Below, piece after piece: positions 33,574 through 58,174 of a stretch of DNA of 64,000 bases. The position numbers and the translations under genes are program-made. The notes beneath the pieces are model-generated. The model did no database searches, was not told where the DNA came from, and saw only the letters and a program-made list of their open reading frames with translations. Within the stretch, counting starts at the first letter, position 1. Every line of letters starts with the position of its first letter. The stretch comes from Bacteroidales bacterium (lineage in GTDB: Bacteria > Bacteroidota > Bacteroidia > Bacteroidales > F082): assembly GCA_017553625.1 (NCBI GenBank), contig JAFZKP010000027.1:1-64000 (forward strand). The letters are read 5' to 3'.

Positions 33574-35112
33574 ATGATAACTTTCAAAGAAAGAATAACT
33601 CTCGACGAAGTAGAAAAAGTTCTGTATTCAGGCGAAAACATTGAGGTTTCCGAAGAATGGCTCGCGCGTGTTGAGGCTTGTTACCGTTTTTTGGAAAAAT
33701 TCGCTGCCGAAAAAGTCATTTACGGCATCAATACGGGCTTCGGTCCGATGGCACAATGGCGCGTCGACGACCGTTATCTCACTGATTTACAATATAACAT
33801 CATTCGCAGCCATGCCACTGGCGCAGGCGAACCGTTAGACGACGTTTACGTGAAGTCGGCGATGATTGCAAGACTTGGGACAGTGCTTCAATGCCGTTCA
33901 GGAGTGCACACGGATGTCGCTAAGTTATTGATTTCGTTCATTAACAACGAGATTTACCCATTCATCCCGATGCACGGCAGCGTTGGGGCGAGCGGCGACC
34001 TCGTACAGCTGGCACACATAGCGCTCTGCTTGATAGGCGAAGGCGAAGTGCATTACAAAGGCGAATGGCGTAAGTCGGCAGATGTGATGAAACAACTCGG
34101 ACTCATTCCGCTGAAGATGCACATCCGCGAAGGCTTGAGCATCACCAACGGCACATCTGTGATGACGGGCATCAGCGTGGTGAACCAGCTACATGCCGAG
34201 AATCTGCTCGACTGGGCTACTTTGGCAGCCGTTTGGATGAACGAGATAGCCGCTTCGTTTGACGATTACATGTCGGAAGGCGAAAACGCTCCGCGTCGTC
34301 ACGAGGGACAACAGGTGATGGCACGCAGGATGCGCGAACTCTCGGAAGGTTCGCAATGTTTGAAGAAACGCGCTCATGAGCTATACGACTACGGACATAA
34401 AGATGTTAAGGTGTTTGAGCATAAGGTTCAGGCTTATTATTCTTTGCGTTGCACGCCGCAGATTCTCGGTCCTATCTACGACACCTTGCAAAACACACGT
34501 CAAATCATTGAAGATGAACTTAATTCGGCATGCGACAACCCTATCGTCGACCCGGATTCGCAATACGTTTATCATGGTGGAAACTTCCACGGCGATTACA
34601 TATCGTTGGAGGAAGACAAGGTCAAGATTGCTTTGGTGCGTCTCTGCATGACGGCTGAACGACAGCTCAACTACCTGTTCCATGATCGCATCAACGGCAT
34701 CTTGCCTCCGTTCCTCAACCTCGGGACGCTCGGTCTGAACTACGGAATGCAGGCGTGTCAGTTCACTGCCACCTCGACAACCGCTGAGTGTCAGACACTT
34801 GCGATGCCTAACTACGTTCACAGCATCCCGAACAACAACGACAACCAGGACATCGTGAGCATGGGCACCAACACCGCTTTGATTTGCAAGCAAGTGGTCG
34901 AAAACTGCTTCCAAGTGATGGCGATACAGTACATCGCTTTGGCGCAGGCAACAGACTGCCTGAAAATTGCCGACAAGCTCTCCCCCACTTCGCGTAAGGT
35001 TTACGACAAGATTCGTGAGATGGTGCCGCTCTTCATCGAAGACACGCCGTTCTACAAGGACATCGCAAACGTTGAAAACTATTTGAAAACCACTAAATTG
35101 AACTTGAAATAA
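33574..35112 (+). CDS. Tyrosine ammonia-lyase-like aromatic amino acid lyase (HAL/PAL/TAL family)
   Basis: 512 residues. MIO-dependent lyase that removes ammonia from an aromatic amino acid. The MIO cofactor triad Ala139-Ser140-Gly141 is in HGSVGASGDLVQL, and Tyr50 (VIYGINTGFGP) is the catalytic Tyr loop. The selectivity pair is Ser79-His80 in IIRSHATGAGEPL. From memory, the Flavobacterium johnsoniae enzyme shown to be a tyrosine lyase has closely similar segments (VIYGVNTGFGPMAQ, RSHSSGTGKPL, YHGGNFHGDYISLE, HSIPNNNDNQDIVSMGTN), all matched here. With the polyketide genes behind it, the best reading is 4-coumarate supply as aryl starter. HAL activity is the alternative. First gene of the cluster. 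Confidence 0.87.
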   Translation: MITFKERITLDEVEKVLYSGENIEVSEEWLARVEACYRFLEKFAAEKVIYGINTGFGPMAQWRVDDRYLTDLQYNIIRSHATGAGEPLDDVYVKSAMIARLGTVLQCRSGVHTDVAKLLISFINNEIYPFIPMHGSVGASGDLVQLAHIALCLIGEGEVHYKGEWRKSADVMKQLGLIPLKMHIREGLSITNGTSVMTGISVVNQLHAENLLDWATLAAVWMNEIAASFDDYMSEGENAPRRHEGQQVMARRMRELSEGSQCLKKRAHELYDYGHKDVKVFEHKVQAYYSLRCTPQILGPIYDTLQNTRQIIEDELNSACDNPIVDPDSQYVYHGGNFHGDYISLEEDKVKIALVRLCMTAERQLNYLFHDRINGILPPFLNLGTLGLNYGMQACQFTATSTTAECQTLAMPNYVHSIPNNNDNQDIVSMGTNTALICKQVVENCFQVMAIQYIALAQATDCLKIADKLSPTSRKVYDKIREMVPLFIEDTPFYKDIANVENYLKTTKLNLK

Positions 35113-35840
35113 TGAAATACGCTCTCATCACCGGCGCTTCACGCGGCTTGGGCAAGGCTGTTGCCATCCGCCTCGCAAAAGACGGCTTTTCGGTGATTAT
35201 CAATTATCAATCGAACAAAGAAGCTGCAGAAGACACCTTGAAGCAGGTGCAGGAACTCGGCGGAACAGGTGAGCTTTTGCCGTTCAATGTCGCTGACCCA
35301 CAAGCTATTGAGGCAGCACTCGAAGGCTGGCAGAACGCCCATCCCGACGATTACATCTCCGTTTTGGTAAACAACGCTGGAATCCGCAAAGACAACCTCA
35401 TGATTTTCATGCAGGACGAGGAATGGAACAAGGTGCTCGACACCACCCTCAACGGATTCTTTTACATCACTCGCCGTCTGTTGAAAGAGATGATGATGCA
35501 TCGCAAAGGACGTGTCATCAACATGGCGTCGTTGTCAGGAATCAAAGGGCTTCCGGGACAGGCAAACTACTCCGCGGCGAAGGCAGCGCTCATCGGAGCG
35601 ACAAAGGCCCTCGCACAGGAAGTGGCGGCGCGGAAAGTGACCGTCAACGCCATAGCACCGGGCTTCATCGCAACGGACATGACGAAAGAACTCAACGAAG
35701 ACGAGCTGAAGAAGCTCATCCCTATGGGACGCTTCGGAAAACCCGAGGAAGTGGCAAGTCTGGTGTCGTTCTTAGCTTCCGACGAAGCATCATACATTAC
35801 CGGACAAGCAATTTCAATAAACGGTGGACTTTACACTTAA
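35112..35840 (+). CDS. fabG: 3-oxoacyl-ACP reductase (FabG/ApeQ-like)
   Basis: 242 residues. SDR with the NADPH loop TGASRGLG (7-14), NNAG (87-90) and catalytic Ser140, Tyr153 and Lys157 (YSAAK), plus the FabG C-terminus SFLASDEASYITGQAISINGGLYT. It would reduce the beta-keto group after each ketosynthase condensation. It is coupled to the lyase by TAATG. It is the only ketoreductase visible in the cluster, so it probably serves all elongation rounds. Confidence 0.9.
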   Translation: MKYALITGASRGLGKAVAIRLAKDGFSVIINYQSNKEAAEDTLKQVQELGGTGELLPFNVADPQAIEAALEGWQNAHPDDYISVLVNNAGIRKDNLMIFMQDEEWNKVLDTTLNGFFYITRRLLKEMMMHRKGRVINMASLSGIKGLPGQANYSAAKAALIGATKALAQEVAARKVTVNAIAPGFIATDMTKELNEDELKKLIPMGRFGKPEEVASLVSFLASDEASYITGQAISINGGLYT

Positions 35841-35851
35841 AAAACAATACT

Positions 35852-36406
35852 ATGAAAAAACTGTTTCTTATTACGATTTTGCTGTTAATGACAGCGAGTG
35901 TCTTTGCCCAGGAGCAGGAGGCTAAAGTTCGTATTCCAAGCGGATATCAGGGTTTTTTCGAATATGGTAACACCTATCTCTTCGATGATAATCCGAGTCT
36001 GATGAACTTTTCGACGACTCATGGTTTCTATATGAATGGACATACTTACGTTGGAATTGGTATTAGTATAGATACGAAATACTTACTATTCTTATTGCCG
36101 ATATATGGCAATGTTCGATATGTTTTCAATAATAACAGAGTTGTTAGTCCTGTGGTAGGGCTGCGTTTGGGTTGTTTTGATACAAAAACTGTTGGTTTTT
36201 ATGGTGACCTTACAATAGGTTTACGTTTTGCCACCAAGCGCGACTTTGCAATATCTTTCCTAATATCAGGAACTCATTATAATGGTGTATATTTTAGATA
36301 TCGTCATCCTTATACGGATGAATATGGTATAGATCATATGGAACGTTGTTGGGGTTCTAGGAATAACCTAACTGGCATTTCGTTAAGACTTGGGATTGAA
36401 TGGTAA
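35852..36406 (+). CDS. Small outer-membrane beta-barrel-like protein, AT-rich insertion in the cluster
   Basis: 184 residues from the ATG at 35852; the frame is open back into fabG but only this Met precedes a signal peptide (MKKLFLITILLLMTASVFAQ). The rest alternates strands and turns (FFEYGNTYLFDD, GFYMNGHTYVGIGISIDTKYLLFLLPIYGNVRYVF, FYGDLTIGLRFATKRDFAISFLISG, ISLRLGIEW), fitting an 8-stranded barrel. I recognise no family. Base composition is visibly more AT-rich than the genes on either side, with many ATA, TTA and AAT codons, so it may be a later arrival. It could help place or move the product in the outer membrane. Confidence 0.7.
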   Translation: MKKLFLITILLLMTASVFAQEQEAKVRIPSGYQGFFEYGNTYLFDDNPSLMNFSTTHGFYMNGHTYVGIGISIDTKYLLFLLPIYGNVRYVFNNNRVVSPVVGLRLGCFDTKTVGFYGDLTIGLRFATKRDFAISFLISGTHYNGVYFRYRHPYTDEYGIDHMERCWGSRNNLTGISLRLGIEW

Positions 36407-36419
36407 TTTTTGATTAGTT

Positions 36420-37646
36420 ATGGCAAGAAGAGTAGTCATCACCGGCATGGGAATTTGGTCATGTCTGGGCAAAAATAAAGAAGAAGTCAGCATGGCGTTA
36501 CGCGAAGGCAAGTCGGGCATCGGAGTCGACCCTCAGCGTATCGAATACGGCTATCGTTCGCCACTGACGGGCATCGTGGAGAAGCCACAGCTCAAAGGCA
36601 AGCTCGACCGCAAGCTCCGCATGTACCTCGCCGAAGAAGGCGAATACGCTTATATGGCAACGCTTGAAGCATTCGAGCAGGCAAAAATCAACGAGGAATA
36701 CCTCCTGAACAATGAAATCGGTGTGCTTTTCGGCAACGATTCTTCTGCGAAAGCGGTCATCGAATCACACGAAATTGCTTTGGAGAAGAAAGACACCACT
36801 TTGATTGGCTCGGCAGCGATTTTCCAGTCGATGAACTCCACCGTGACGATGAACCTCTCCACCATCTTCCACCTCAAAGGCATCAACATGACGATAAGCG
36901 CCGCCTGTGCAAGTGGTTCACACTCAATAGGATTGGGCGCATTATTGATTCGCAACGGTTTGCAGGACATGGTGCTTTGCGGCGGCGCTCAGGAGACGAA
37001 TTACCTCTCGATGGGCAGCTTCGACGGCATCAGCGCGTTCTCGACAAGAGTCGATGACCCTACAAAGGCATCACGTCCATTCGACAAAGACCGCGACGGA
37101 CTCATCCCAAGCGGCGGCGCAGCGGCATTGGTGCTCGAAGACTACGACCACGCCATCGCACGCGGAGCAACGATTCTGGCAGAAGTCTGCGGCTACGGAT
37201 TCTCGTCAAACGGCGAGAGCCATATCTCACAACCCAGCGAAGACGGCTGCTATCGTGCCATGACGCGTGCCATGAAAGAAGCAGGCGTTGAAGCAAAAGA
37301 CATCGACTACGTCAACGCCCACGCCACCTCGACACCGCAAGGCGACATGTTCGAGGCAATGGCACTGAAACGACTCTTCGGTCCTACTCAAACACCGATT
37401 TCATCAACGAAATCAATGACCGGACACGAGTGCTGGATGGCTGGCGCAAGCGAGATAGTCTACTCCATCCTCATGATGAAGGGCAAGTTCATCGCCCCGA
37501 ACATCAATTTTGAGAATCCAGACGAATATTCCGAAGGTTTAAATATCATCAACAAGACGACAGACAAAGAATTAGAAACTATCCTTTCCAACTCATTCGG
37601 TTTCGGCGGAACGAATAGTGCATTGATAATCAAGAAAATACATTAA
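36420..37646 (+). CDS. Beta-ketoacyl-ACP synthase, FabB/FabF-type (KS 1)
   Basis: 408 residues, full length. Thiolase-fold condensing enzyme for chain elongation from malonyl-ACP. The catalytic triad is complete: Cys163 in SAACASGSH, His301 in NAHATSTPQGD and His336 in MTGHECWMAGASE. The C-terminal SFGFGGTNSALI is typical. Compared with the other two active ketosynthases it is the most FabB-like, so it may start or extend the polyene. Thirteen bases after the small barrel gene. Confidence 0.9.
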   Translation: MARRVVITGMGIWSCLGKNKEEVSMALREGKSGIGVDPQRIEYGYRSPLTGIVEKPQLKGKLDRKLRMYLAEEGEYAYMATLEAFEQAKINEEYLLNNEIGVLFGNDSSAKAVIESHEIALEKKDTTLIGSAAIFQSMNSTVTMNLSTIFHLKGINMTISAACASGSHSIGLGALLIRNGLQDMVLCGGAQETNYLSMGSFDGISAFSTRVDDPTKASRPFDKDRDGLIPSGGAAALVLEDYDHAIARGATILAEVCGYGFSSNGESHISQPSEDGCYRAMTRAMKEAGVEAKDIDYVNAHATSTPQGDMFEAMALKRLFGPTQTPISSTKSMTGHECWMAGASEIVYSILMMKGKFIAPNINFENPDEYSEGLNIINKTTDKELETILSNSFGFGGTNSALIIKKIH

Positions 37647-37648
37647 AA

Positions 37649-38746
37649 ATGAAATTATTTCCAGGTCTCGAAAAAGCATATACCAAAGAACATAAAAGAG
37701 CCGGTGAAGCCCAAGAGATGGCGTATTTCATCGCTTTCGGTCCGATAATTTTCCAAGTTGGGAGACTGATGATAAAATTCGGCATCCTTGACATGCTTCG
37801 CGACAGCGACAAAGGCATGACTATGGCTGAAATAGCAGCAAAGACTGGACTTTCCGACTACGCCGTAAAGGTTTTGATGGAAGGCTCTCTCTGCATCGGA
37901 CTGGTGATTTTGGACAAAGAAACTGACCGTTTCACCATGTCGAAAACGGGATTTTTCCTCCTCACCGACCCTGCCATCCGCGTGAACATCGACTTCAACC
38001 ACGATGTAAATTACGAAGGTTGGTTCAAGCTTGAAGAGGCTTTGAAAGAAGGAAAACCTGCAGGTCTGGAGCATTTTGGCAGTTGGCCAACGATTTACGA
38101 AGGTCTGTCACAACTGCCTGCGGACGTGCAGAAAAGCTGGTTCGGATTCGACCATTTCTACTCCGACCACTCGTTCGACCAAGCACTGCAGATTGTGTTC
38201 AGCAACAAGCCGAAGACCTTGCTTGATGTTGGCGGAAACACAGGCCGTTGGGCGCTTCGTTGCGTCGATTTCGACGAGAACGTCAACGTCACAATCATGG
38301 ATCTGCCGCAACAGCTTGAGATGATGAAGAATTTCACAAAAGGCAAGAAAGGATTCGAACGCATCGACGGCTACGGCATCAACTTACTCGATGACAATCA
38401 ACAGTTTCCGACCAACAAGCACTACGACGTGATTTGGATGAGCCAGTTTTTGGATTGTTTTGGCGAGGATGAGATTTTGAGCATCGTGTCAAGAGCCGCG
38501 AAAATCATGGACAAGGACAGCCGTTTGTGCATCATGGAGACGTTCTGGGACCGTCAGAACTACCCTGCCGCCGCCTTCGCACTGACGATGACATCGTTGT
38601 ATTTCACAGCATTAGCTAACGGAAACAGCAAGATGTACCATTCAGATGACATGGAACGTCTTGTAAAGAAAGCAGGATTGGAAGTTGAGACGATTCATGA
38701 CGGTTTGGGACACGGGCATAGCATTATGGTTTGCAAAAAAATTTAA
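37649..38746 (+). CDS. SAM-dependent O-methyltransferase-like protein
   Basis: 365 residues. An N-terminal winged-helix dimerisation domain (about 35-110, MIKFGILDMLRDSDKGMTMAEIAAKTGLSDYAVKVLMEG) precedes a class I methyltransferase fold with motif I LLDVGGNTGRWAL (about 191-203), TIMDLPQQLEMM and DVIWMSQFLDCFGEDEI. This is the architecture of small-molecule O-methyltransferases (acetylserotonin or hydroxyneurosporene type). In aryl-polyene and flexirubin clusters such an enzyme methylates the aryl head. It follows KS 1 by two bases. The fold is certain; the position methylated is unknown. Confidence 0.85.
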   Translation: MKLFPGLEKAYTKEHKRAGEAQEMAYFIAFGPIIFQVGRLMIKFGILDMLRDSDKGMTMAEIAAKTGLSDYAVKVLMEGSLCIGLVILDKETDRFTMSKTGFFLLTDPAIRVNIDFNHDVNYEGWFKLEEALKEGKPAGLEHFGSWPTIYEGLSQLPADVQKSWFGFDHFYSDHSFDQALQIVFSNKPKTLLDVGGNTGRWALRCVDFDENVNVTIMDLPQQLEMMKNFTKGKKGFERIDGYGINLLDDNQQFPTNKHYDVIWMSQFLDCFGEDEILSIVSRAAKIMDKDSRLCIMETFWDRQNYPAAAFALTMTSLYFTALANGNSKMYHSDDMERLVKKAGLEVETIHDGLGHGHSIMVCKKI

Positions 38747-38747
38747 A

Positions 38748-38913: not shown

Positions 38914-39156
38914 ATGAAAAGAGAAGAAATTGAAGCAAAAGTTAAAGAGTTCATGGTTGAGGACCTTGAACTCGACGAGGCAAAAATCACACCAGAGGCA
39001 CGTCTGAAAGAGGACATCGGCGTCGACAGCCTCGATTTCGTTGACATCGTGGTCATCGTCGAGCGCAAATTCGGTTTCAAAATCAAGACCGAAGAGATGG
39101 CTAACGTCAAGACATTCAGTCAGTTCTGCGACTATATCGAGAAGAAGACAGCCTGA
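38914..39156 (+). CDS. Acyl carrier protein (ACP 1)
   Basis: 80 residues. Four-helix ACP with the phosphopantetheine Ser39 in IGVDSLDFVDIVV. It carries intermediates of the polyene. It starts after a 167-base gap full of repeats, unlike its neighbours, which are coupled, so its expression could be set separately. The acyltransferase starts two bases after its stop. Confidence 0.92.
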   Translation: MKREEIEAKVKEFMVEDLELDEAKITPEARLKEDIGVDSLDFVDIVVIVERKFGFKIKTEEMANVKTFSQFCDYIEKKTA

Positions 39157-39158
39157 TA

Positions 39159-40052
39159 ATGGCGAGTGGACTGCAACATAACGAATGGTCGGGAAAGACG
39201 GGCGGACTGCCTTGGATGCAGCGTTCGCTAATCGTCATGTTCCGTGTGTTGCCGCTGTGGCTGCCCTACGGCGTGATGGCGTTGGTGGTGCCTTTCTATA
39301 TGATTTTCAACAGGAAAGGCTTCAAAGCGATGTATCAGTTTTTCAGAAAACACCTCGGCTACAGCAGATGGAAATCGTTTTGTAAGGTCTACGCCAACCA
39401 TTTCCGATTCGGTCAGATAATTTTAGACCGTTTCGGCGTGTATGCAGGTAAAAAATACACCTTTGTCACTGATGGTCAGGAACTTATAGACGAGTTGGAG
39501 AGACAGCCAGAAGGATTCGTAAACTTGAGCAGCCATGTTGGAAACTATGAGATTGCAGGTTATTCTTTAAAACCCAAGTCAAAGAGATTCAACGCTTTGG
39601 TGTATGCTGGCGAGACCGCCACGGTGATGGAGAACCGTCAGAAGATGCTTTCGCAGAACAACATGAGCATGATTCCAGTGAAAGAAGACATGTCGCATCT
39701 GTTTTTGCTGAACAATGCCATCGACAACGGCGAGATTGTGAGCATGCCTGCCGACAGAATCTTCGGCTCCCAGAAAGCCGCCGAGTGCCGGTTTTTTGGC
39801 GAAAATGCGAGATTTCCCTTGGGCGCATTCGCATTGGCAGCTCAGAAAAACGTCTCTGTGCTCGTTGTATTCGTGATGAAATCAGGATATAAGAGTTATC
39901 ACGCTTACGTCCGTGAGATACAATGCGATAGAGAAGCCAAGATTCGCGAGCAGATGAGTCAAATGGCACAGAGTTTCGCTGACAATCTCGAGGAAATAGT
40001 CAGGAAATACCCGACGCAATGGTTCAACTATTTTGATTTTTGGAAACAATGA
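39159..40052 (+). CDS. LpxL/HtrB-like lysophospholipid acyltransferase
   Basis: 297 residues. An N-terminal membrane segment (SLIVMFRVLPLWLPYGVMALVVPFYMIF, about 23-50) precedes the lauroyl-transferase fold. The HX4E catalytic motif is His-Val-Gly-Asn-Tyr-Glu in SSHVGNYEIAGY (about residue 125-130). Related proteins (ApeD-type) occur in aryl-polyene clusters and probably transfer the finished acyl chain from ACP to a lipid acceptor at the inner membrane. Its stop overlaps the next start (ATGA). Confidence 0.85.
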   Translation: MASGLQHNEWSGKTGGLPWMQRSLIVMFRVLPLWLPYGVMALVVPFYMIFNRKGFKAMYQFFRKHLGYSRWKSFCKVYANHFRFGQIILDRFGVYAGKKYTFVTDGQELIDELERQPEGFVNLSSHVGNYEIAGYSLKPKSKRFNALVYAGETATVMENRQKMLSQNNMSMIPVKEDMSHLFLLNNAIDNGEIVSMPADRIFGSQKAAECRFFGENARFPLGAFALAAQKNVSVLVVFVMKSGYKSYHAYVREIQCDREAKIREQMSQMAQSFADNLEEIVRKYPTQWFNYFDFWKQ

Positions 40053-40486
40053 GAAAAATCGAGGACATAACGCTAAGCGAGCTTCTGCCGCAACGACCGC
40101 CATTCGTGATGATTGACAGGTTGGTTTCATGCGACGATGTGTTTGCAGTGACCGAGTTGACCGTTCGCAAGGATAATATTTTCGTTGAAGATGAACGACT
40201 TACGTCATCAGGACTAATTGAAAACATTGCCCAGACATGCGCTGCGAGAATCGGTTATCTCAACCTTAACGCGGGCGGCACTGTGAAAATCGGCGTCATC
40301 GGCGCAATTAGCAACCTCGACATCATCAGGACTCCGAAAGTGGGCGAAAAACTTGAGACAACGATAGAATTAATCAGCGAAGTGTTTCAGATGACATTGG
40401 TTGAATCAGTGATTAGAATTAACGGTGAGGAGATAGTCCGCGCCAACATGAAAATAGCGTTAACCGACATAGAATCAAAGGATTAA
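40049..40486 (+). CDS. ApeP-like hotdog-fold dehydratase
   Basis: 145 residues; starts at the ATG overlapping the previous stop, not at an upstream TTG. A single hotdog fold begins ITLSELLPQRPPFVMIDRLVS, like FabZ/ApeP proteins. The central helix is SSGLIENIAQTCAARIGY with Glu58 retained, but the HFPGxP segment carrying the catalytic His of FabZ is missing. ApeP-type dehydratases also have the GIE-x-x-AQ pattern without HFPG. It should dehydrate 3-hydroxyacyl-ACP to build conjugated double bonds, perhaps with the ApeI-like protein at 45560. Confidence 0.78.
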   Translation: MRKIEDITLSELLPQRPPFVMIDRLVSCDDVFAVTELTVRKDNIFVEDERLTSSGLIENIAQTCAARIGYLNLNAGGTVKIGVIGAISNLDIIRTPKVGEKLETTIELISEVFQMTLVESVIRINGEEIVRANMKIALTDIESKD

Positions 40487-40487: not shown

Positions 40488-41606
40488 ATGATAGTCTGCG
40501 TTTCACATAACATCATCTCGCCACTCGGCACCACCTCAGCGGAAAACTACGCGGCGGTGAAGTCGGGCAAGTCGGCTTTGCGCAAATACGACGGACTTTG
40601 GGGCTTGCCAGAGCCTTTCGTTGCTTCTTTGCTTGACAGAAAAGCATACGCAGACGAGAAGTACACCATTGACGAAAGAATCGTAATTGATTCAATATCA
40701 ATAGCTTTAAAAAATACTGACATCGATGCGACATCAAAAAAGGTGCTTTTCATCATCTCAACGACAAAAGGAAATGTCTTTTTGCTTGACAAAAATGAAA
40801 ACGGTTTCCCGAAAGAGCGAGTTCGCCTTGGCATGATGGCGCGTCAGATTACAAAGCATTTTCACAATCCAAACGAGCCTGTCGTGGTGTCAAATGCTTG
40901 TATCTCGGGCGTTTGTGCCCAGATTGAAGCGATGAGATATTTGGAAAGCGGCGAATACGATTACGTCATCGTTTGCGGCGTTGATGTGCAGTCGGCATTT
41001 ATAGTGTCTGGTTTTCAATCGTTTAAAGCGCTTTCACCTGACGAATGCAAGCCTTTTGATGCAAACAGACAAGGTCTTAATTTAGGCGATGCAGCGGCTA
41101 CGATTATTTACACAAAGAAAGATAAAGTCAATGAAAATGAATGGGTTGCGTGCCGTGGAGCAATAAGAAACGACGCCAATCACATTTCAGGTCCATCGCG
41201 AGTGGGCGAAGGCAGTTTCAGAGCATTGAGAATCGCTTTAGGCGACCTTGAACCTGAAAAAATCGCCTTCATCAACGCTCACGGAACGGCGACGTCATAC
41301 AACGACGAGATGGAGTCGATAGCCATCGAAAGAGCAGGATTATCAGGCGTTCCCGTCAATTCACTGAAAGGTTATTACGGCCATACGATGGGCGCGGCTG
41401 GCGTGCTTGAGACCATACTCTCCATGCAAGCCGTCGACGATCATAACATCTTGGGTACCAGAGGCTTCGACACTATAGGCGTGACTCATCCTTTGGATAT
41501 TTCAAATCAAAACAGAGCAACCGAAAAACGTGCTTTCATCAAGCTTTTATCTGGATTCGGCGGCTGCAACGCGGCATTGCTCATGGCGAAAGGAGGTCTG
41601 CAATGA
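40488..41606 (+). CDS. Beta-ketoacyl-ACP synthase (KS 2), short form
   Basis: 372 residues, somewhat shorter than FabF. Condensing enzyme with Cys138 in VVSNACISGVCAQ, His265 in NAHGTATSYNDE and His299 in GYYGHTMGAAG, so catalysis should be intact. It starts two bases after the ApeP-like gene and its stop overlaps the next gene (ATGA). The immediate partner is a ketosynthase-like fragment, so KS 2 and that protein may form a heterodimer. Confidence 0.87.
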   Translation: MIVCVSHNIISPLGTTSAENYAAVKSGKSALRKYDGLWGLPEPFVASLLDRKAYADEKYTIDERIVIDSISIALKNTDIDATSKKVLFIISTTKGNVFLLDKNENGFPKERVRLGMMARQITKHFHNPNEPVVVSNACISGVCAQIEAMRYLESGEYDYVIVCGVDVQSAFIVSGFQSFKALSPDECKPFDANRQGLNLGDAAATIIYTKKDKVNENEWVACRGAIRNDANHISGPSRVGEGSFRALRIALGDLEPEKIAFINAHGTATSYNDEMESIAIERAGLSGVPVNSLKGYYGHTMGAAGVLETILSMQAVDDHNILGTRGFDTIGVTHPLDISNQNRATEKRAFIKLLSGFGGCNAALLMAKGGLQ

Positions 41607-50190: not shown

Positions 50191-53159
50191 AAAAGTGCAT
50201 CATCATAGGAAGCGGCTTGGGTGGTCTTTCCACTGGTGTCATCTTGGCGAAAAACGGCTACGATGTCACCATTTTGGAGCAGGCGAACCAAATCGGAGGC
50301 TGTTTGCAATGCTTCCAACGTGATGGTGTGAAGTTTGAGACCGGCATGCACTTCATCGGCAGCCTCGATGACGGAAAAGTGCTTTCAAATTATCTTAACT
50401 ATTTGGAAATCAAGGATAAAATCGTCGTAAATCCTCTTGACAAAAACGCATACGACATCGTTTCTCTGAACGGCGAGCGTTTTTCATTTCCAAACGGACG
50501 TGAGGCTTTCATCGAGCATTTTTCAGAGCGTTTTCCAAATCAACGCGAGAATCTTATTCAATATTGCGATTTGGTCGAGCAGGTTGCCGCATTGTCACCC
50601 TTCCGCGATTTGAAGCTCCTCGACGACAACAGTTTTTTCAAGAGTAACGAACTGTTATTCAAGAGTTTAAACGAAATAATCGACTCCACAATAACCGACC
50701 CGCTTTTGCGAAATGTTTTGGTCGGCAATATCTCACTTTATTCGGCCGAGAAAAACAAAACGCCGTTTGCTGTGCATGCTTTCATCTTTGATTTCTACAA
50801 CAACGGCGCATATCGTATCGTCGGAGGCAGCGATGCCATTGCTAAAGTATTGAGTGATAATATTTTACATTACGGCGGACATATTCTCACACGCCAAAAA
50901 GTGACACAAATTGTCATTGAAAACAAGGTCGCGATTGGCGTAAAAACCGAAAACGAAGACTTTTATCCTGCCGATGTCGTGATTTCCGACATAAATCCAA
51001 AGCAACTCATTGATATTGTTGATGATACAGTCTTTAACGAAGCTTATAAATCAAGAATTAGGGACATAAGAAACACTTCATCTGTATTCTCTTTGTATCT
51101 GCGTTTCAAAGATGAAGCGATGCCGTATCTTAACTCTAATTTCTATGGTTTTCAATCAGTTACGCCATGGGAAATGAGCGGCAAAGTCGATGAGAAATGG
51201 CCCAACGGTTATCTTTACATGCATCATTGCCATGAGAAAGAACCGATATTCGCGAAAAGTGGAGTGATTTTGTCATACATGTCAATTGACGCAATGGACA
51301 AGTGGAAAGACACCACAATTGGTCACAGAGGCGCTGATTATGAACGATTTAAGCATGATATGGCGGAACGATTGTTGGACGTTGTGGAAAAAGATTTTCC
51401 TGGTTTGAGAGATTCCATTGCCGACTATCACGCAGCCACGCCTCTCACCTACCGCGACTACACCTCCACGCCCGACGGCTCGATTTACGGTCTCGCAAAA
51501 GACGTGAACAAAGGCATAGCAGGAAGAGTTTCGTATAAAACAAAGGTGCCGAATCTTTTCCTTGTTGGTCAAAACATCAACTCACACGGCATGCTCGGCG
51601 TACTCGTCGGGACGATGACTGTTTGCTCGCAACTCATTGGAGAACAAACGGTTAAGCAACAGATGATTGAAGCCAACCGTAAGACCACGCTAATCATCGG
51701 AGGCGGTCTCGGCGGTCTCGTGACTGGTGCTCTTCTCACAAAAGAAGGCCATAAAGTGACCGTTTTGGAGAAAAACAGCATTATCGGTGGCGGATTGCAG
51801 TCGTTTTACAGGCACAATGTGGAGTTTCCAACAGGAATGCACATTTTCGGAGGCTTCAACGAAGGCGGAAATCTTAAGCAAATATTTGATTATCTTGACA
51901 TTACAGACAAATTACAGCTTCAACCAACTGATGACGACGCCTGCGATGTTGTGACAATTTCAGAAGACAATGCCACATATTTTTTACCGAAAGGCAAGGA
52001 AAACCTGATAGATTATCTTTCAAAAATTTTCCCTGACGAGGCTGAAAATATCAGAAATTACATAGAAAAACTGTTTGAATTGTCGCAAGAGGAAGACCTT
52101 TTTTATATTCGTGAAAGCTCGCCTGAACCCAATTTCACATCTCTTTCAGAAGACTTCCTAATGCCTTATAACTCTTTGATTGACAAATACATAAACAATC
52201 CAAAACTCAAGAGGCTGATGGGTTATCTTAGCCCACTTTTCGGTGGCGTTGAAAACATGACACCTGCGTTTTTAAATGCACTTCTGAGCGTTTTGCACAT
52301 CAATGGGACGTTCCAGTTTACGGGAGGCAGTCAGCAGATGGCGGATTTACTTAAAGAAGTGATTGAAGATGGCGGCGGAAAGGTCATCGCAAACGAGGAA
52401 GTGGCTAAAATAAACATTGAGAATCATTTAGTTTCAGAGGTTATGACCAAAAAAGGCAATTCATATACCGCCCAAAACTACATTTCAGATGTTCATCCCG
52501 ACGTGCTTTTAAAACTTGTCAGCGAAAACGCTTTCCCAACAGCTTTCAAAAAACGTCTGCGTTCGATTCCTGAGTCTTCTTCAAGTTTCAAAGTTTATGT
52601 AAAATTTAAGAAAGACACTTTCCATTACATAAATCATGCAAGTTATATCATTGATAATCAAAAAGAATGGCCACAAGGTCTGATGTATGTGACACCTCCG
52701 GTAGAGAATCAGGGAGAGTTTGCCAATACGATGATTATCATTAGCATGATGAGTTTTGACGAAGTAAGACGGTGGGAAGACACGAAAACAGGGCATCGTG
52801 GCGAGGATTATGAGCGTTGGAAACAACAAATGACTGATAAATTGCTTTCACGAATGGAGCAGATTTATCCAGATTTCCGCAGCAGCATTGAGTTTTCGTT
52901 TGCCTCCTCCCCTCTCACCATCCGCGATTTTTACGGCAACAAAGAAGGCTCAAACTACGGATTCCAAAAGGACAGCAACGACCTCATGCTTTCGCAAATG
53001 TCAGTATTTACAAAGGTTAAGAATCTCTTCCTCACAGGACAGAATGTCAACATCCACGGATTCTGCGGTGTTTCTTTGACAGCGATTCAGACTGCCGAAG
53101 CACTCGTCGGACATAACGAAATCGTTAGAAAAATCAATAAAATTTGTCAAAGTAATTAA
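50187..53159 (+). CDS. Tandem-fused FAD-dependent oxidoreductase (phytoene desaturase-like, two complete copies)
   Basis: 990 residues from the ATG overlapping the previous stop. Two full-length CrtI/retinol-saturase-like proteins lie head to tail. Copy 1 is residues 1-492 (CIIIGSGLGGLSTGVILAKNGYDVTILEQ...GGCLQ) and copy 2 is 493-990 (TLIIGGGLGGLVTGALLTKEGHKVTVLEK...GGGLQ). Both contain RIVGGS/FTGGSQ-type substrate strands, the DxxP-like ISDINP/ISDVHP and a C-terminal NLFLVGQNINSHGMLG / NLFLTGQNVNIHGFCG FAD site. Both look intact. The family desaturates or saturates isoprenoid and polyene chains. Here it probably acts on the polyene or its precursor. In related clusters the copies are separate genes; the fusion resembles a heterodimer made covalent. 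Confidence 0.87.
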   Translation: MKKCIIIGSGLGGLSTGVILAKNGYDVTILEQANQIGGCLQCFQRDGVKFETGMHFIGSLDDGKVLSNYLNYLEIKDKIVVNPLDKNAYDIVSLNGERFSFPNGREAFIEHFSERFPNQRENLIQYCDLVEQVAALSPFRDLKLLDDNSFFKSNELLFKSLNEIIDSTITDPLLRNVLVGNISLYSAEKNKTPFAVHAFIFDFYNNGAYRIVGGSDAIAKVLSDNILHYGGHILTRQKVTQIVIENKVAIGVKTENEDFYPADVVISDINPKQLIDIVDDTVFNEAYKSRIRDIRNTSSVFSLYLRFKDEAMPYLNSNFYGFQSVTPWEMSGKVDEKWPNGYLYMHHCHEKEPIFAKSGVILSYMSIDAMDKWKDTTIGHRGADYERFKHDMAERLLDVVEKDFPGLRDSIADYHAATPLTYRDYTSTPDGSIYGLAKDVNKGIAGRVSYKTKVPNLFLVGQNINSHGMLGVLVGTMTVCSQLIGEQTVKQQMIEANRKTTLIIGGGLGGLVTGALLTKEGHKVTVLEKNSIIGGGLQSFYRHNVEFPTGMHIFGGFNEGGNLKQIFDYLDITDKLQLQPTDDDACDVVTISEDNATYFLPKGKENLIDYLSKIFPDEAENIRNYIEKLFELSQEEDLFYIRESSPEPNFTSLSEDFLMPYNSLIDKYINNPKLKRLMGYLSPLFGGVENMTPAFLNALLSVLHINGTFQFTGGSQQMADLLKEVIEDGGGKVIANEEVAKINIENHLVSEVMTKKGNSYTAQNYISDVHPDVLLKLVSENAFPTAFKKRLRSIPESSSSFKVYVKFKKDTFHYINHASYIIDNQKEWPQGLMYVTPPVENQGEFANTMIIISMMSFDEVRRWEDTKTGHRGEDYERWKQQMTDKLLSRMEQIYPDFRSSIEFSFASSPLTIRDFYGNKEGSNYGFQKDSNDLMLSQMSVFTKVKNLFLTGQNVNIHGFCGVSLTAIQTAEALVGHNEIVRKINKICQSN

Positions 53160-53175
53160 ATGTTTCGTATATTTG
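53143..53175 (+). promoter_or_regulatory. Internal promoter before the radical SAM gene
   Basis: -33 TTTG (53143-53146), 21-base spacer, -7 TATATTTG (53168-53175): a textbook Bacteroidetes promoter that overlaps the end of the oxidoreductase gene. It would let 53208-58174 be transcribed separately from the core cluster. Confidence 0.78.
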
Positions 53176-53207: not shown

Positions 53208-54533
53208 ATGGAAACTATAAAGCTGAAACTGATTTACCCGAAATGGAACAAGCTTCCAGGGCAGACAACTTTCAATTTACCGCCTCACGGACCCGTGGCT
53301 TTTGCCGCCACCTTGCCGGAATATGTCGACATTTCTTTCACCGACGAGAACGTTGAACCCATTGATTTTGATGAGGAATGCGACCTCGTTGCTCTCTCGA
53401 TGATGCTCACCACGCAGGTGAAACGCGGCTGGGCTATCGCCGATGAATATCACAAAAGGGGCAAAAAAGTCCTTGCAGGGGGCATCTCAACCATGCTTCA
53501 TGCAGAAGAGATGGTGAACCATGTCGACAGCGTGTTTTTGGGCGAGTCGGAAGGCCGCTCGGAGCAGGTCATTTTGGATTGGAAAAACGGCTGTTTGAAG
53601 AAGATTTACAACTACATGGGCAACCAACCTGACATCGCGCTGGTTGGTCCGTGCCGCCGTGACCTTTACAAACGCGAGCTCTACAACCACAAAGGCGTGC
53701 AGATGGTAGACCTTTTCCATGCGAGCCGCGGATGCCGTTTCAGCTGCTACCCTTGCGCCGTGTCGTACCTCGGCGGTCGTAAGTTCCGTCCGCGCCCGGT
53801 CGACAAGGTAGTGGAAGACATGGCGGGCATCGACAACAACCGTCTGTTTATCGTCGATAACTCATTGGCACAGAACAAGGAATGGGAGAAAGAACTGTTC
53901 ACCGCCATCGCGCCTTTGAAGAAAAAATGGATTAGCCACACCATAGAAGACGACCCGGAGATTCTCGACCTCGCCTCAAAAGCCGGTGCATGGTACGTGT
54001 ATCAAGCCGTTTACGACACATCAGAGTACATCAAGGAACGTGTGAAACGCTATCATGACTACGGCATCGGGGTGGAAGGAACGATTTTGTTCGGGCTTGA
54101 TAATCAGACAGAAGACGACATCAAACGCCTCATCGACTTCCTTGGCGAGATTGATTTGGATTTGGCGGAATTCACCATTTTCGCACCATTCCCGCACACC
54201 AAAGGCCACGACGATTTGTTAAGACAAGGCAGAATCTTCGACTTCGACTGGGATCATTACAACGCCGGACAAGTCGTGTATCAGCCGAAAAACATGTCAC
54301 CTGAGAAGCTGCAGGACCTTTACGATTACGCGTGGAAGAGTTTCTATGCAAGCGAGACGCAGGAATCGAAGATGTTCCGCCTGTTCTGCAACGTGGCAAT
54401 GCGCGAGATGGAAGAAGGCACATATCGTCCGCGCGACAGAAGGCTGATAAACAAGTCATTTGGTCGTGATGTTGATAGAAGCGTACGAAATGTGAACGTC
54501 AGGACAGAAAATCAACAATTGAAATTGAATTAA
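53208..54533 (+). CDS. Radical SAM enzyme with N-terminal B12-binding-like domain
   Basis: 441 residues. The N-terminal Rossmann-like domain (about 25-150, DISFTDENVEPIDFDEECDLVALSMM...KKVLAGGISTMLHAEE) resembles cobalamin-binding domains, but the DxHxxG motif that ligates B12 is not seen. The radical SAM core follows with Cys176-x3-Cys180-x2-Cys183 (GCRFSCYPC) for the [4Fe-4S]-SAM cluster. Similar enzymes act on lipids or hydrophobic carriers (HpnJ/HpnR, ladderane clusters). The substrate is unknown; a modification of the polyene chain is possible. It is set apart by its own promoter and is coupled to the following orphan protein. Confidence 0.85.
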   Translation: METIKLKLIYPKWNKLPGQTTFNLPPHGPVAFAATLPEYVDISFTDENVEPIDFDEECDLVALSMMLTTQVKRGWAIADEYHKRGKKVLAGGISTMLHAEEMVNHVDSVFLGESEGRSEQVILDWKNGCLKKIYNYMGNQPDIALVGPCRRDLYKRELYNHKGVQMVDLFHASRGCRFSCYPCAVSYLGGRKFRPRPVDKVVEDMAGIDNNRLFIVDNSLAQNKEWEKELFTAIAPLKKKWISHTIEDDPEILDLASKAGAWYVYQAVYDTSEYIKERVKRYHDYGIGVEGTILFGLDNQTEDDIKRLIDFLGEIDLDLAEFTIFAPFPHTKGHDDLLRQGRIFDFDWDHYNAGQVVYQPKNMSPEKLQDLYDYAWKSFYASETQESKMFRLFCNVAMREMEEGTYRPRDRRLINKSFGRDVDRSVRNVNVRTENQQLKLN

Positions 54534-54534
54534 G

Positions 54535-54897
54535 ATGAAAGTATCACCAGAATATTATGATGAGATTTTCCCGTTCAAGGGCGAATGGGACATGGAATCG
54601 TCTTGTGGATTGAAAATCAGAGAGATAAACGGCAAAAAATACGTCATCGTGACGGAATTGTATCAAGACAATCCAGGGACTTCGGTGACTTACGCAGGCA
54701 AAAAACTCGCCGACCAGATTTGCGAGGCGAAGGATCTAAAGCTGGAAGACATTGTGTATCTTGAATGTACGCCGAACACCAATTCCAAGCTGTCATTTTA
54801 CGACGAGGAATATTTCCAAGTTGATTTCTTTGCAGACATGCAGCACAAATACCGTCAGCTTTCGAAAGAAGAAGTGATGAATATCTTGGGCAGATAA
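54535..54897 (+). CDS. Uncharacterised 120-residue protein between radical SAM and hydrolase genes
   Basis: 120 residues, soluble, no signal peptide or membrane span. Sequence features: KVSPEYYDEIFPFKGEWDMESSCGLKIREINGKKYVIVTELYQDNPGTSVTYAGKKLADQICEAKDL, then EDIVYLECTPNTNSKLSFYDEEYFQVDFF and a basic C-terminus. It looks like a compact alpha/beta domain that may bind a partner. I recognise no family. It starts one base after the radical SAM stop and shares a base with the next gene start, so it is probably a partner or accessory of the radical SAM enzyme. Not long enough to be an enzyme of known type. Confidence 0.6.
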   Translation: MKVSPEYYDEIFPFKGEWDMESSCGLKIREINGKKYVIVTELYQDNPGTSVTYAGKKLADQICEAKDLKLEDIVYLECTPNTNSKLSFYDEEYFQVDFFADMQHKYRQLSKEEVMNILGR

Positions 54898-55757
54898 TGT
54901 TAAAGAAATCATTGATATTCAGTTTGTTAGTCATTCTTGCCGAAACCATTTCCGCACAAGAGACCGTTGCTTTGTGGCAGGGTCAAAAAGTGAGACACGG
55001 CGAGCAAGTGACTTTGACTCCGTTTTTGGCGGATAACAATGAAAACGGAATATCAATTATCGTTTGTCCTGGAGGCAGTTACTTCTGGCTCGACGATGTC
55101 AACGAGGGTGAAGAAGTGGCGGAATGGCTGCAAAATCAAGGCATTTCAGCGTTTGTGCTACGTTACAGAGCTGCTGGCTTCGGGGCGTTTTTCTGGCATC
55201 ACAGAAGGATTTTCAGAGGAAAACAGCATCCCGACATGCTTGAAGACGCACAACAGGCAATACAATATGTGAAAGAGCATTCCGAAGAGTATAAAATTGA
55301 CCCTAACAGATTGGGAATCATCGGGTTCTCTGCCGGAGGACATCTCGCCATGATGACGGCGTGCTTTTCCGATAAGGAAGACCAGCCGGCATTTGTTGGC
55401 GCGATTTACCCCGTCGTGACGATGAACGCGCCGTATGTCCATGAACGCTCGCGTCGCGCCTTGCTCAGTGAACGCAAGCAAAACAACCAAACGATGCGCG
55501 ACTCATTGTCAATGGAAAAACACATCCCTGACAACTGTCCTCCTGTGTTTGTCATAAACTGCGTCGACGACGAAACCGTTGATTATCACAACTCTATGCT
55601 TCTCGACTCGGCTCTGACGGCGAAAAAAATTGAACACAAATACATTCAATATCAGACTGGCGACCACGGCTTCGGCGTAAGCGAGGTGTTTGGAACTGAA
55701 GAAAGCAGACAGTGGAAACATGAATTTTTAAAATGGCTTAAAGAAATAAAGTTATAA
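54897..55757 (+). CDS. Secreted alpha/beta-hydrolase (esterase/lipase-like)
   Basis: 286 residues. Signal peptide MLKKSLIFSLLVILAETISAQ, then a BD-FAE/Aes-like esterase fold: oxyanion region VCPGGSYFWL (about 54-63), nucleophile Ser in GFSAGGH (about 142-148), Asp in NCVDDETVDYH (about 222) and His in TGDHGFG (about 260). It is predicted to be periplasmic or exported and could cleave an ester such as an acyl intermediate or a mature lipid. The cluster position suggests lipid-ester work, but a general carbohydrate esterase cannot be excluded. Confidence 0.82.
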   Translation: MLKKSLIFSLLVILAETISAQETVALWQGQKVRHGEQVTLTPFLADNNENGISIIVCPGGSYFWLDDVNEGEEVAEWLQNQGISAFVLRYRAAGFGAFFWHHRRIFRGKQHPDMLEDAQQAIQYVKEHSEEYKIDPNRLGIIGFSAGGHLAMMTACFSDKEDQPAFVGAIYPVVTMNAPYVHERSRRALLSERKQNNQTMRDSLSMEKHIPDNCPPVFVINCVDDETVDYHNSMLLDSALTAKKIEHKYIQYQTGDHGFGVSEVFGTEESRQWKHEFLKWLKEIKL

Positions 55758-55766
55758 TTCAACAAT

Positions 55767-57065
55767 ATGAATATCAATGATATAGAATACAAATCCGTTG
55801 AGGAGATAAAAGCATTTCAGGAAGGTTTGCTTCATGAGGCGTTGGCATATCTGCAGGCTAATTCGCCGTATTATCAGCGGATGTTCAAGAGCTACGGCAT
55901 CAACATTGAAAAGATTCGTCACATTGAGGATTTGGTGAAGATTCCGTTCACTGAGAAGAAGGATTTGCAGCTGTTCAACGACGAGTTTTTATGCTGTCCG
56001 AAAGCAAAAATCATTGATTACATCACCACTTCTGGCACACTTGGCGACCCTGTGACGTTCGGATGCACCGAGAAAGACCTGCAACGTCTGGCATTCAACG
56101 AGAAGAAATCGTTTGAGTGCGCAGGCGTGAAGCCAGGCAATATCGTCCAGCTGATGACGACACTCGACAAGCGTTTCATGGCGGGACTGGCTTATTTTCT
56201 TGGGCTTCGCGAGCTCGGTGCCGGCGTGATACGTGTCGGAAACGGCATCCCGGAGCTGCAGTGGGACACCATCAAGCGCATAAAGCCCGACACCATCATG
56301 TGCGTGCCGTCGTTCATACTTAAACTCATCCAATACGCTGAAGACCATGAAATTGACTACAAAAACAGTAGCATACGCCGCATCATAGGCATAGGTGAAG
56401 GTCTTCGCGACCAGAACTTTGACCTCAACCTCCTTGGCAGGAAAATCAAGGAGAAATGGGACGTGCAGCTGTTCGCCACTTATTCCTCGACAGAGATGGG
56501 CGCCACATTCTCGGAATGCGAGTACGGATTGGGCGGTCACGTGCATCCTGAGCTGATAATAGTAGAAATCATTGGCGAAGACGGACTTCCGGTCCCCGAC
56601 GGTCAACCTGGCGAGATTGTGGTGACCACACTCGGCGTGGAAGGCATGCCGTTGCTGCGTTTCCGCACTGGCGACATCGCTGCTAAGATTGTTGAGCAAT
56701 GCAGATGCGGACGCAACTCCTACCGCCTCACCCCTCTCGTGGGACGCAAAAACAACATGATAAAACTCAAAGGCACGACACTGTATCCGCCAGCGATAAA
56801 TGACGTTTTGGACAACACCGAATACGTTGAGAACTACGTGATTGAGGTGCGCCAGAGCGAAGCGGGAACCGACGACGTGATTGTGAAAATCGGATTGAAA
56901 TACCAGCCCGATTTTGAGGTGGTAAAAGAGCTGAAAGACAGCTTCCGCTCACGCATCAGAGTAGCACCACAGATTGAAGTGCATCCCGTTGAGGAGATTC
57001 AGAAGATTAATTATCCGGCAAAGAGCCGTAAACCCATAAAATTCATCGACTTAAGAAACAAATAA
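55767..57065 (+). CDS. Phenylacetate-CoA ligase (PaaK)-like adenylating enzyme
   Basis: 432 residues. ANL-superfamily enzyme that activates a carboxylate with ATP. The P-loop-like IDYITTSGTLGDPVTFGCTEKDL (about 88-110), YSSTEMGATFSECEYG (about 236-250), GEIVVTTLGVEGMPLLRFRTGDIA (about 290-312) and the C-terminal lysine in KINYPAKSRKPIKF are present. PaaK-like ligases load aryl acids. Here it can activate 4-coumarate from the ammonia-lyase and pass it to an ACP, the starter step of aryl-polyene synthesis (ApeH-like). A one-base overlap (TAATG) couples it to the next gene. Confidence 0.86.
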   Translation: MNINDIEYKSVEEIKAFQEGLLHEALAYLQANSPYYQRMFKSYGINIEKIRHIEDLVKIPFTEKKDLQLFNDEFLCCPKAKIIDYITTSGTLGDPVTFGCTEKDLQRLAFNEKKSFECAGVKPGNIVQLMTTLDKRFMAGLAYFLGLRELGAGVIRVGNGIPELQWDTIKRIKPDTIMCVPSFILKLIQYAEDHEIDYKNSSIRRIIGIGEGLRDQNFDLNLLGRKIKEKWDVQLFATYSSTEMGATFSECEYGLGGHVHPELIIVEIIGEDGLPVPDGQPGEIVVTTLGVEGMPLLRFRTGDIAAKIVEQCRCGRNSYRLTPLVGRKNNMIKLKGTTLYPPAINDVLDNTEYVENYVIEVRQSEAGTDDVIVKIGLKYQPDFEVVKELKDSFRSRIRVAPQIEVHPVEEIQKINYPAKSRKPIKFIDLRNK

Positions 57066-58174
57066 TGGCTAATTTCGACGACATAAGACCCTATAACGCC
57101 GACGAGCTTCCAGCCGCCATGCAACGCATCGCCGACAGCGAGCTGATTCCGTCGATTGCAAACTACCTGATGCCAGGCGCAGATGCCGAGATATTGCGCA
57201 ACAGACTTCGTAATATAAAGAACATCAAAGAGTTACAAGTTGGATTTTTAAAAGAAGTCATTGAGATTCTGTTAAAAAAGACCACTACGCAATTCGACTG
57301 GTCGGGATTGGAAAACATCAAAGAGAAGAAGCCGTATCTGTTTGTGTCGAACCATCGTGACATTGTGCTTGACGCGATGTTTCTGCAGTATATCTTGAAC
57401 GCCGGAGGCCACAACACCTGCCAAATCACTTTCGGAAGCAACCTCATGGAACACCCTCTCGTCGTTGACTTCGGCAAAGCGAACAAGATGTTCCGCATTG
57501 AGCGTGGCGGCAACAGGATGGAGTTTTACAACAACCTGATGCACACCTCAGACTACATGCGCCACGTCATCACCGAGGAGAAGGAGTCTGTGTGGATTGC
57601 GCAGCGCAACGGGCGCACCAAAGACGGCATCGACGCCACCGACCCAGCCATCATCAAGATGTTTTGGATGAGCCGCCGCGATGACAAGGTGAAATCATTG
57701 GCAGAGCTGAACATCGTTCCTGTAGCGGTGTCATACGAGTGGGAATCATGCGACAAGCTGAAAACACTGGAGCTTTACGCGACTAAGGTAAACGGAAGAT
57801 ACGAGAAACGCCCTGGCGAGGACCTCAACAGCATCCTCACGGGCATCATGCAGCCGAAGGGTCATGTGCACTTCCACATCTGCGAACCAGTCACCGAGGA
57901 CGACTTGCTCAGAATGGACAGCAACCCTGGCGACTATTTCAACAACATCGCAAAACTCATGGACGAGCGCATCAACGCAGGCTACATGGCAATGCCTAAT
58001 AATTTCATTGCCAACGACTTACGCAGCGAATCAGACAAATACGCAAGCCATTACACAGAACAGCAAAAAGCCGATTTCTTGCAATACATGAAGTGGATTG
58101 AGGTATATAAAGACCTCGACCAGGCGCTTTTACGCGATATTTTCTTGGGAATCTACGGAAACTCAGTGAGATAA
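57065..58174 (+). CDS. Acyltransferase (PlsC/LPLAT superfamily, variant motif), last cluster gene
   Basis: 369 residues. The acyltransferase block I is FVSNHRDIVLD (about 93-103). The conserved His97 and Asp103 are five residues apart instead of the usual four, so the catalytic geometry may differ or Asp99 may act. Block II/III-like segments follow: NKMFRIERGGNRM (about 140-152) and QRNGRTKDGIDATDPAI (about 180-196). It could transfer the activated aryl or polyene chain to a glycerolipid. It is coupled to the ligase. It ends two bases before the stop of the convergent transglutaminase-like gene, with no visible terminator between. Confidence 0.8.
   Translation: MANFDDIRPYNADELPAAMQRIADSELIPSIANYLMPGADAEILRNRLRNIKNIKELQVGFLKEVIEILLKKTTTQFDWSGLENIKEKKPYLFVSNHRDIVLDAMFLQYILNAGGHNTCQITFGSNLMEHPLVVDFGKANKMFRIERGGNRMEFYNNLMHTSDYMRHVITEEKESVWIAQRNGRTKDGIDATDPAIIKMFWMSRRDDKVKSLAELNIVPVAVSYEWESCDKLKTLELYATKVNGRYEKRPGEDLNSILTGIMQPKGHVHFHICEPVTEDDLLRMDSNPGDYFNNIAKLMDERINAGYMAMPNNFIANDLRSESDKYASHYTEQQKADFLQYMKWIEVYKDLDQALLRDIFLGIYGNSVR

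Follow-up and report, generated by a model that had tools for sequence, protein, structure and literature searches.

A predicted flexirubin-type aryl-polyene gene cluster of a Bacteroidales bacterium carries a radical SAM gene block and lacks recognizable dialkylresorcinol genes

We analyzed a cluster of 24 co-directional genes at positions 33574-58174 of a 64-kb stretch of DNA from a Bacteroidales bacterium (the window), with which contig C26 of the draft genome G000 begins (2.47 Mb; 86.7% complete). Sequence comparisons assign these genes to a flexirubin-type (Flx) aryl-polyene cluster in which no genes for the dialkylresorcinol (dar) half were found and to which a block encoding a radical S-adenosylmethionine (SAM) enzyme, a 120-aa orphan protein and an esterase appears to have been added. 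The genes, all on the + strand, are separated by at most 13 bases, except for gaps of 167 bases before 38914 (acyl carrier protein [ACP] 1) and 48 bases before 53208 (radical SAM gene). This agrees with the preliminary description of this DNA, in which about 24 co-directional genes, most of them overlapping or within 15 bases, had been counted. The reading frames are open and active-site motifs are retained. Since 23 of the 24 genes keep their order in both G101 (99% complete) and G185 (100% complete), two near-complete relatives of the window's genome, the arrangement is not due to chance. The promoter-like sequence TAnnTTTG occurs 20 times on the window's + strand, including at 33531 and at 53168.

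Five of the encoded proteins exceed the curated NCBIfam cut-offs for flexirubin proteins. These are an FlxA-type tyrosine ammonia-lyase (33574..35112; NF053541, 836.8 bits, cut-off 700) with the ASG motif at residue 139, which would generate the starter 4-coumarate from tyrosine, an FlxB-type ketoreductase (35112..35840; NF053542, 413.2 bits, cut-off 340), an FlxJ-type methyltransferase (37649..38746; NF053543, 596.3 bits, cut-off 560), the flexirubin-type periplasmic carrier LolA2 (44976..45569; NF053544, 152.9 bits, cut-off 125) and an FlxY-type 4-coumarate:CoA ligase (55767..57065; NF053551, 701.5 bits, cut-off 520). The order tyrosine ammonia-lyase, ketoreductase, ketosynthase (KS), ACP, acyltransferase, dehydratase, KS, short KS-like protein, ACP, KS, chain-length factor (CLF), LolA, dehydratase, glycosyltransferase, MMPL, CrtI and FlxY is common, with local moves and losses, to order-level genomes such as G106, G165, G021, G108 and G093. 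The KS/CLF/ACP/dehydratase core in Flx order is also matched, with local moves, in G304, G480 and others, and partly in class-level genomes. Because five curated models are passed and the Flx gene order is kept, the cluster is best classified from its sequence as flexirubin-type, as had been proposed together with its ammonia-lyase starter enzyme. FlxA and FlxY of Chitinophaga pinensis have been assayed and make 4-coumarate and 4-coumaroyl-CoA (PMC3992019), and lolA2 was placed within the flexirubin operon of Flavobacterium johnsoniae (PMC11885536).

The chain-building enzymes include three ketosynthases (all PF00109/PF02801), namely KS 1 at the FlxC position (36420..37646; SAACAS, NAHATST and GHECW, the last read in the translation), KS 2 (40488..41606; SNACIS, NAHGTAT, GHTMGA) and KS 3 (42421..43617; STACSS, NAHGTGT, GHTTSA). 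Their Cys and His motifs agree with the earlier description of three active ketosynthases. The best solved relatives of KS 3 are FabF chains, with 6qsp_A further down the list. ACP 1 (38914..39156; PF00550 and ACP subfamily models) and ACP 2 (42163..42420; PF00550; NF006617, 84.9 bits, cut-off 70) carry the serine motifs DSLD and DSID, respectively, as expected for the two ACPs described before. Two Cys-less KS-like proteins had also been claimed. One of them is a CLF-like KS (43617..44618; PF13723, PF00109) with STHN where the Cys motif would be. For the other, a short Cys-less protein of 183 aa (41603..42154), a KS-like nature, possibly as a truncated KS/CLF, is only plausible, as it has no Pfam or NCBIfam match and a profile of 19 orthologues ranked 8g8i first (E 7e-5), a designed protein of repetitive sequence in which no individual stretch passed, and then, as a weak match, 6kxd_B 'Ketosynthase' (E 0.01, 18.6 bits). 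The first dehydratase (40049..40486) is ApeP/FabZ-like, with 16.5 bits for the ApeP model PF22817 (cut-off 27) and 32.4 bits for fabZ (below cut-off), and shares 34% identity with a dehydratase of the Flx cluster in G222. The second (45560..45937) is FabA/ApeI-like and scores 28.4 bits with PF07977 (cut-off 23) and 22.7 bits with the ApeI model PF22818 (cut-off 28.5).

Lipid transfer and transport may be served by an LpxL-like acyltransferase (39159..40052; PF03279, 63.2 bits), a family 2 glycosyltransferase (45924..46676; PF00535, 76.4 bits), a fusion of an MMPL/RND exporter with a PlsC-type acyltransferase (46669..50190; PF03176 and PF01553) and a separate PlsC-type acyltransferase (57065..58174; PF01553, 39.8 bits; no NCBIfam match). 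A small EamA/ArnEF-like membrane protein (44621..44974; PF00892, 41.3 bits; ArnF model 50.7 bits, below cut-off) precedes LolA2. Pfam and NCBIfam thus returned the families previously described for the methyltransferase, LolA-like carrier, MMPL transporter, PaaK-like ligase and acyltransferases. The reported absence of a phosphopantetheinyl transferase holds for the window, but not for the genome, in which such a domain is encoded on contig C12. In two related loci a protein of about 150 aa is encoded between LolA and the ApeI-like dehydratase (L235:1867-2322 and L281:2152-2622), where the window has no gene; it recalls lolB2 beside lolA2 of F. johnsoniae (PMC11885536).

A gene between FlxB and KS 1 (35852..36406) encodes a small protein of 184 aa with a signal-like start, by eye secreted or outer-membrane-like, without Pfam or NCBIfam match. 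It was seen only in the window's genome among the genomes compared, and tblastn gave no match in the compared loci; only part of these extend this far, and the loci that contain both neighbours are among those without a match. In L276 a different secreted-looking protein (198 aa) is encoded between KS 1 and the methyltransferase. Neither the ABC genes nor the thioesterase have a match anywhere in the window. The lack of the thioesterase-like gene, present in many relatives, and the presence of a short gene peculiar to this genome would fit a decayed cluster that no longer yields a product. We regard this as highly improbable in view of the open frames, the conserved active-site motifs and the 23 genes whose order is preserved in G101 and G185.

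The dar genes were sought at several levels. In G222, G304 and G480, whose Flx clusters share the gene order of the window, DarA and DarB are encoded between the LpxL-like acyltransferase and KS 2, together with DarG and DarH; at this position in the window the acyltransferase is followed by the dehydratase and KS 2. No tblastn match to DarA, DarB, DarG or DarH was obtained anywhere in the 64-kb window, which bears out the earlier statement that DarA and DarB are missing from it and was here extended to the draft genome and its relatives. NCBIfam names DarB, DarG and DarH, while DarA, which has no NCBIfam match, was named from its position beside DarB. That they are missing from the window is by itself not very informative, because darAB of C. 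pinensis are likewise unlinked to flxA-Y (PMC3992019). A DarA query had no match in G000, G101, G178, G034 or G148, and in G185 it gave one weak 110-aa match (E 9.5e-5). DarB was checked genome-wide through matches to PF08541 (KAS III), followed by the identity to DarB at the loci compared. PF08541 proteins were found once in the window's genome, once in G101, twice in G185 and not in G178. The KAS III protein of G000 sits in a fabH-fabF-fabZ run, and the loci compared in G000, G101, G185, G034 and G148 share 21-31% identity with DarB, against 48% for the control G141.

In an order-level sample of 198 genomes, an FlxA-like lyase (E ≤1e-120, which leaves the split lyase of G046 outside) was found in 36. 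DarA accompanies it in 17 of these (5/13 + 12/23) and is lacking in 19, with the weak matches of G185 and G106 treated as without DarA. A lyase tree built from 59 rows and a HutH outgroup, with SH-aLRT support by a quick method, places the window in a 14-row clade (SH-aLRT 100) of which 12 rows are dar-less. These sequence data divide Flx clusters into dar-plus and dar-less kinds. The cluster could nevertheless belong to an ordinary flexirubin pathway in which unrecognized or unassembled genes make the resorcinol and a plain dialkylresorcinol ester is formed. The unlinked darAB of C. pinensis, the draft state of the window's genome and the 17 lyase-bearing genomes with DarA are compatible with such a pathway. 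We consider it unlikely, however, as DarA is absent from the 99% complete G101 and represented in the 100% complete G185 by the weak 110-aa match alone, the KAS III loci compared in these two genomes are not DarB-like, and the window also lacks DarG and DarH, the companions of darAB in G222, G304 and G480.

The true addition to the Flx cluster, as judged by gene content, is the radical SAM gene together with the genes for the orphan and the esterase. The radical SAM enzyme (53208..54533; PF04055, 30.5 bits, cut-off 29.5) has a B12-binding-like N-terminal part that remains below the cut-off of PF02310 (24.4 bits versus 32.1). It is followed by the 120-aa orphan (54535..54897), which has no family match but shows 36 invariant columns across 40 sequences, and by an esterase-like alpha/beta-hydrolase (54897..55757; PF20434, 84.3 bits; AxeA1/PaeX models below cut-off), secreted by eye. 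A scan of named genomes gave at least 535 relatives, of which the best 80 loci were used. These were selected for their similarity in the radical SAM gene, and many of them are truncated at contig ends, which lowers the neighbour-gene counts. The orphan was found next to the radical SAM gene in 80, the esterase in 75, CrtI-like genes in 75, MMPL in 72, FlxY in 67 and the last acyltransferase in 67. DarA, DarB and DarG were found in none of them, and a DarH-like gene in six. Record titles that state a source mostly refer to ruminants (goat, yak, buffalo, deer, sheep) and also to horse, while many titles (RUG, UBA and SRR names) state none; one record, Caecibacteroides pullorum AN421 (L235), is named as a strain and not as a metagenome-assembled genome. 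A record titled 'Clostridiales bacterium' (L260) carries the cluster and is probably a mislabelled genome, and in L247, L249 and L273 the radical SAM orthologue has an in-frame stop inside the alignment.

In the order sample some radical SAM match was present in 78 of 198 genomes, and an orthologue (at least 64% identity) in 18, the other matches listed having at most 39%. Twelve genomes contain both the orthologue and the lyase, and 24 of the 36 lyase genomes lack the orthologue, as do all 24 lyase-bearing genomes of a phylum-level sample (one paralogue, 30%). The preliminary description had called the radical SAM enzyme and the orphan extra. This is correct relative to other Flx clusters, but the pair is, judging from the loci compared, a recurrent part of an Flx subfamily. 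The Flx cluster of G106 ends without the block; there, two CrtI-like genes lead directly to FlxY, whose longest frame is 7 bases away. Among the lyase relatives that lack the radical SAM gene, the nearest is G003 (L165; 74%), which has the esterase and FlxY, and no ketoreductase, KS 1, dehydratase, LolA, MMPL or CrtI match in the stretch fetched. In G156:C13 and G046:C43 (L063 and L061), the radical SAM and orphan genes are part of a polyene-type cluster of another kind, which also holds a KS/CLF pair, a DarH-like gene and a gene that by eye is sulfotransferase-like.

The motif CxxxCxxC is present in 80 of 80 radical SAM orthologues and DxHxxG in none. Sequence comparison retrieved a single solved structure (E 1.6e-5), 6fd2, titled 'apramycin biosynthetic oxidoreductase 4', which we take to be AprD4; the NCBIfam model for AprD4 is titled diol-dehydratase. 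Solved cobalamin radical SAM members have been described that bind cobalamin without a histidine ligand (PMC13331322). As cobalamin radical SAM enzymes are predominantly tied to methylation (PMC13142503), the enzyme could be a C-methylase acting on the aryl ring, the polyene or the anchor. This assignment is possible but doubtful, because FlxJ can already supply a ring methyl group, the only solved relative by sequence is annotated as an oxidoreductase and the B12 domain stays below its cut-off.

The gene upstream of the block (50187..53159; PF01593) encodes a fusion of two carotenoid-desaturase/isomerase-like flavoproteins with two GxGxxG sites, whose halves are homologous (35% identity over 480 aa). 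Unfused tandem CrtI-like genes occur in G178, L235 and G106, and of 19 lyase loci that lack the radical SAM gene, several of them cut short, nine gave CrtI-like matches (3/9 class-level, 6/10 order-level). We therefore rejected the earlier notion that the double oxidoreductase is a foreign extra. The best NCBIfam scores of the pair are with carotenoid desaturase/isomerase models, and as all remain below cut-off its reaction is a guess. A similar mix of gene types has reportedly been proposed for ladderane synthesis. KS, CrtI-like and B12-radical SAM genes might accordingly build a cyclized lipid jointly, and cobalamin radical SAM enzymes have been proposed for ladderane rings (PMC13142503). 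The ladderane B12-radical SAM model TIGR04072, however, gives only 34.9 bits against a cut-off of 360, on which score we set this reading aside, and the presence of FlxA, FlxJ and FlxY speaks for an aryl starter. A ladderane-like product thus seems very remote.

Thirteen of the 80 radical SAM loci have no FlxY. Two of them (L224 and L265) end too early; the other 11 are L235, L251, L255, L267, L272, L274, L275, L276, L279, L281 and L282. When the genomes of 27 of the 80 loci were tested for FlxA, with FlxY sought within the loci only, the lyase exceeded its cut-off in 0 of the 11 FlxY-less genomes and in 13 of 16 FlxY-bearing ones (Fisher p 3e-5). The lyase and the ligase therefore tend to occur, or to be missing, together while the radical SAM block stays, which suggests that the radical SAM step does not need the coumarate starter. 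With FlxY gone from the locus and FlxA from the genome, the starter unit should differ in these 11 cases. In L235 (13738-16437), the last acyltransferase is followed by a second MMPL/acyltransferase-like gene (33%), a 75-aa protein that is ACP-like by eye and a 438-aa adenylating enzyme, which passes no curated model among the 25 listed and is perhaps another starter loader. L274 and L281 contain genes after the cluster that by eye resemble aromatic amino acid synthesis genes.

Taken together, we consider it probable that the window contains an Flx-type aryl-polyene cluster without the dar half, whose polyene acid is placed on a non-resorcinol lipid. According to their families, FlxA would deaminate tyrosine to 4-coumarate and FlxY would form its CoA ester, whereupon the type II ketosynthases, the two ACPs, the FlxB reductase and the two dehydratases would extend this starter to an aryl-polyene acid. 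FlxJ would methylate the ring, and the fused CrtI-like flavoprotein might isomerize or adjust the polyene. As neither DarA nor DarB was found, we take the polyene acid not to be esterified to a dialkylresorcinol. By analogy with the E. coli aryl polyenes, for which attachment to a membrane lipid has been proposed (PMC8253772), we infer that LpxL- and PlsC-type acyltransferases, perhaps with the family 2 glycosyltransferase, pass it to a different lipid or to a glycolipid. Export to the outer membrane would then depend on the MMPL protein and LolA2, and the radical SAM enzyme, together with the orphan protein, may, as a guess, carry out an oxygen-independent tailoring of the polyene or the anchor. 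We thus expect, as the likely product, a polyene acid that is primed with coumarate, methylated on its ring, attached to a non-resorcinol lipid and transported to the outer membrane. Since the known resorcinol-partner genes are missing and a radical SAM enzyme is added, this product may represent a novel variant within a known family of pigments.

Several observations weigh against the dar-less assignment or against a fixed link of the block to it. The window's genome is only 86.7% complete, so that G101 and G185 carry the argument from dar absence, and the second KAS III match of G185, a 605-aa frame, lies outside the DarB identity comparison. Both dehydratases stay below the cut-offs of the Ape models. 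The Fisher test for co-occurrence of lyase and radical SAM orthologue (p 2e-6) ignores shared ancestry, and the lyase tree requires at least six changes of the radical SAM gene. Within the stretch fetched, this gene stands without any Flx neighbour in G141 and G027, and its only companions in G129 are DarA and the lyase, DarA lying between the lyase and the radical SAM gene, which argues against a strict one-operon rule. Finally, DarA occurs in 7 of the 18 genomes with the radical SAM orthologue; together with the arrangement in G129, this led us to reject the idea that the radical SAM gene is a simple substitute for dar.

More tentatively, gut Bacteroidales might possess a new class of aryl-polyene lipids in which the radical SAM enzyme and its dedicated 120-aa partner remodel the polyene or the anchor, by ring formation, dehydration or methylation at an unactivated carbon, and in which the resorcinol half is replaced by another lipid. 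If true, a radical SAM enzyme would carry out, in the absence of oxygen, a task that aerobic producers of flexirubin may leave to oxygen-dependent enzymes. In any case, the conserved radical SAM/orphan pair can now be named as the unexplained step. The comparison also yields matched genomes that carry the block (G101, G185) or lack it (G106), as well as a record named as a strain, C. pullorum AN421 (L235), that carries the block but not FlxA.

In a survey of rumen genomes, aryl polyenes made up 2,800 of 14,814 clusters and were the second most numerous class, and some Prevotella aryl-polyene clusters of the rumen were differentially expressed (PMC8241843). These clusters likely derive from the same host group as the window and, in the accessible text, were counted in bulk, with neither gene-level nor chemical description. 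The literature searched, which covers part of what has been published, yielded no product or gene-level description of a dar-less Flx cluster with the radical SAM/orphan block, no work joining flexirubin, radical SAM and ammonia lyase, and no described product of gut Bacteroidales aryl-polyene clusters. We therefore judge the pigment family to be known and the dar-less Flx cluster with this block to be what is new.

Among known systems, the flxA-flxY cluster of C. pinensis and the flexirubin cluster of F. johnsoniae (PMC3992019) share with the window a tyrosine ammonia-lyase starter enzyme, a 4-coumarate:CoA ligase-type FlxY, five putative ketosynthases, reductases, dehydratases, LolA, a glycosyltransferase, an acyltransferase and an exporter. 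Unlike these clusters, the window has no DarG or DarH and a fused CrtI-like pair, and its genome has no DarA or DarB that we could find; the radical SAM enzyme, the 120-aa orphan and the esterase are not named among the flexirubin genes in the accessible part of that paper. The apeA-R cluster of E. coli (PMC8253772) is alike in its KS proteins, two ACPs, two dehydratases, ketoreductase, methyltransferase, acyltransferases, LolA-like carrier and RND transporter. No ApeH-type acyl-ACP synthetase was found among the 24 proteins of the cluster, the only adenylating enzyme being FlxY. The two systems would thus be primed differently: in E. coli the starter is 4-hydroxybenzoate, loaded by the acyl-ACP synthetase ApeH, whereas the cluster described here would start from coumarate provided by FlxA and FlxY.

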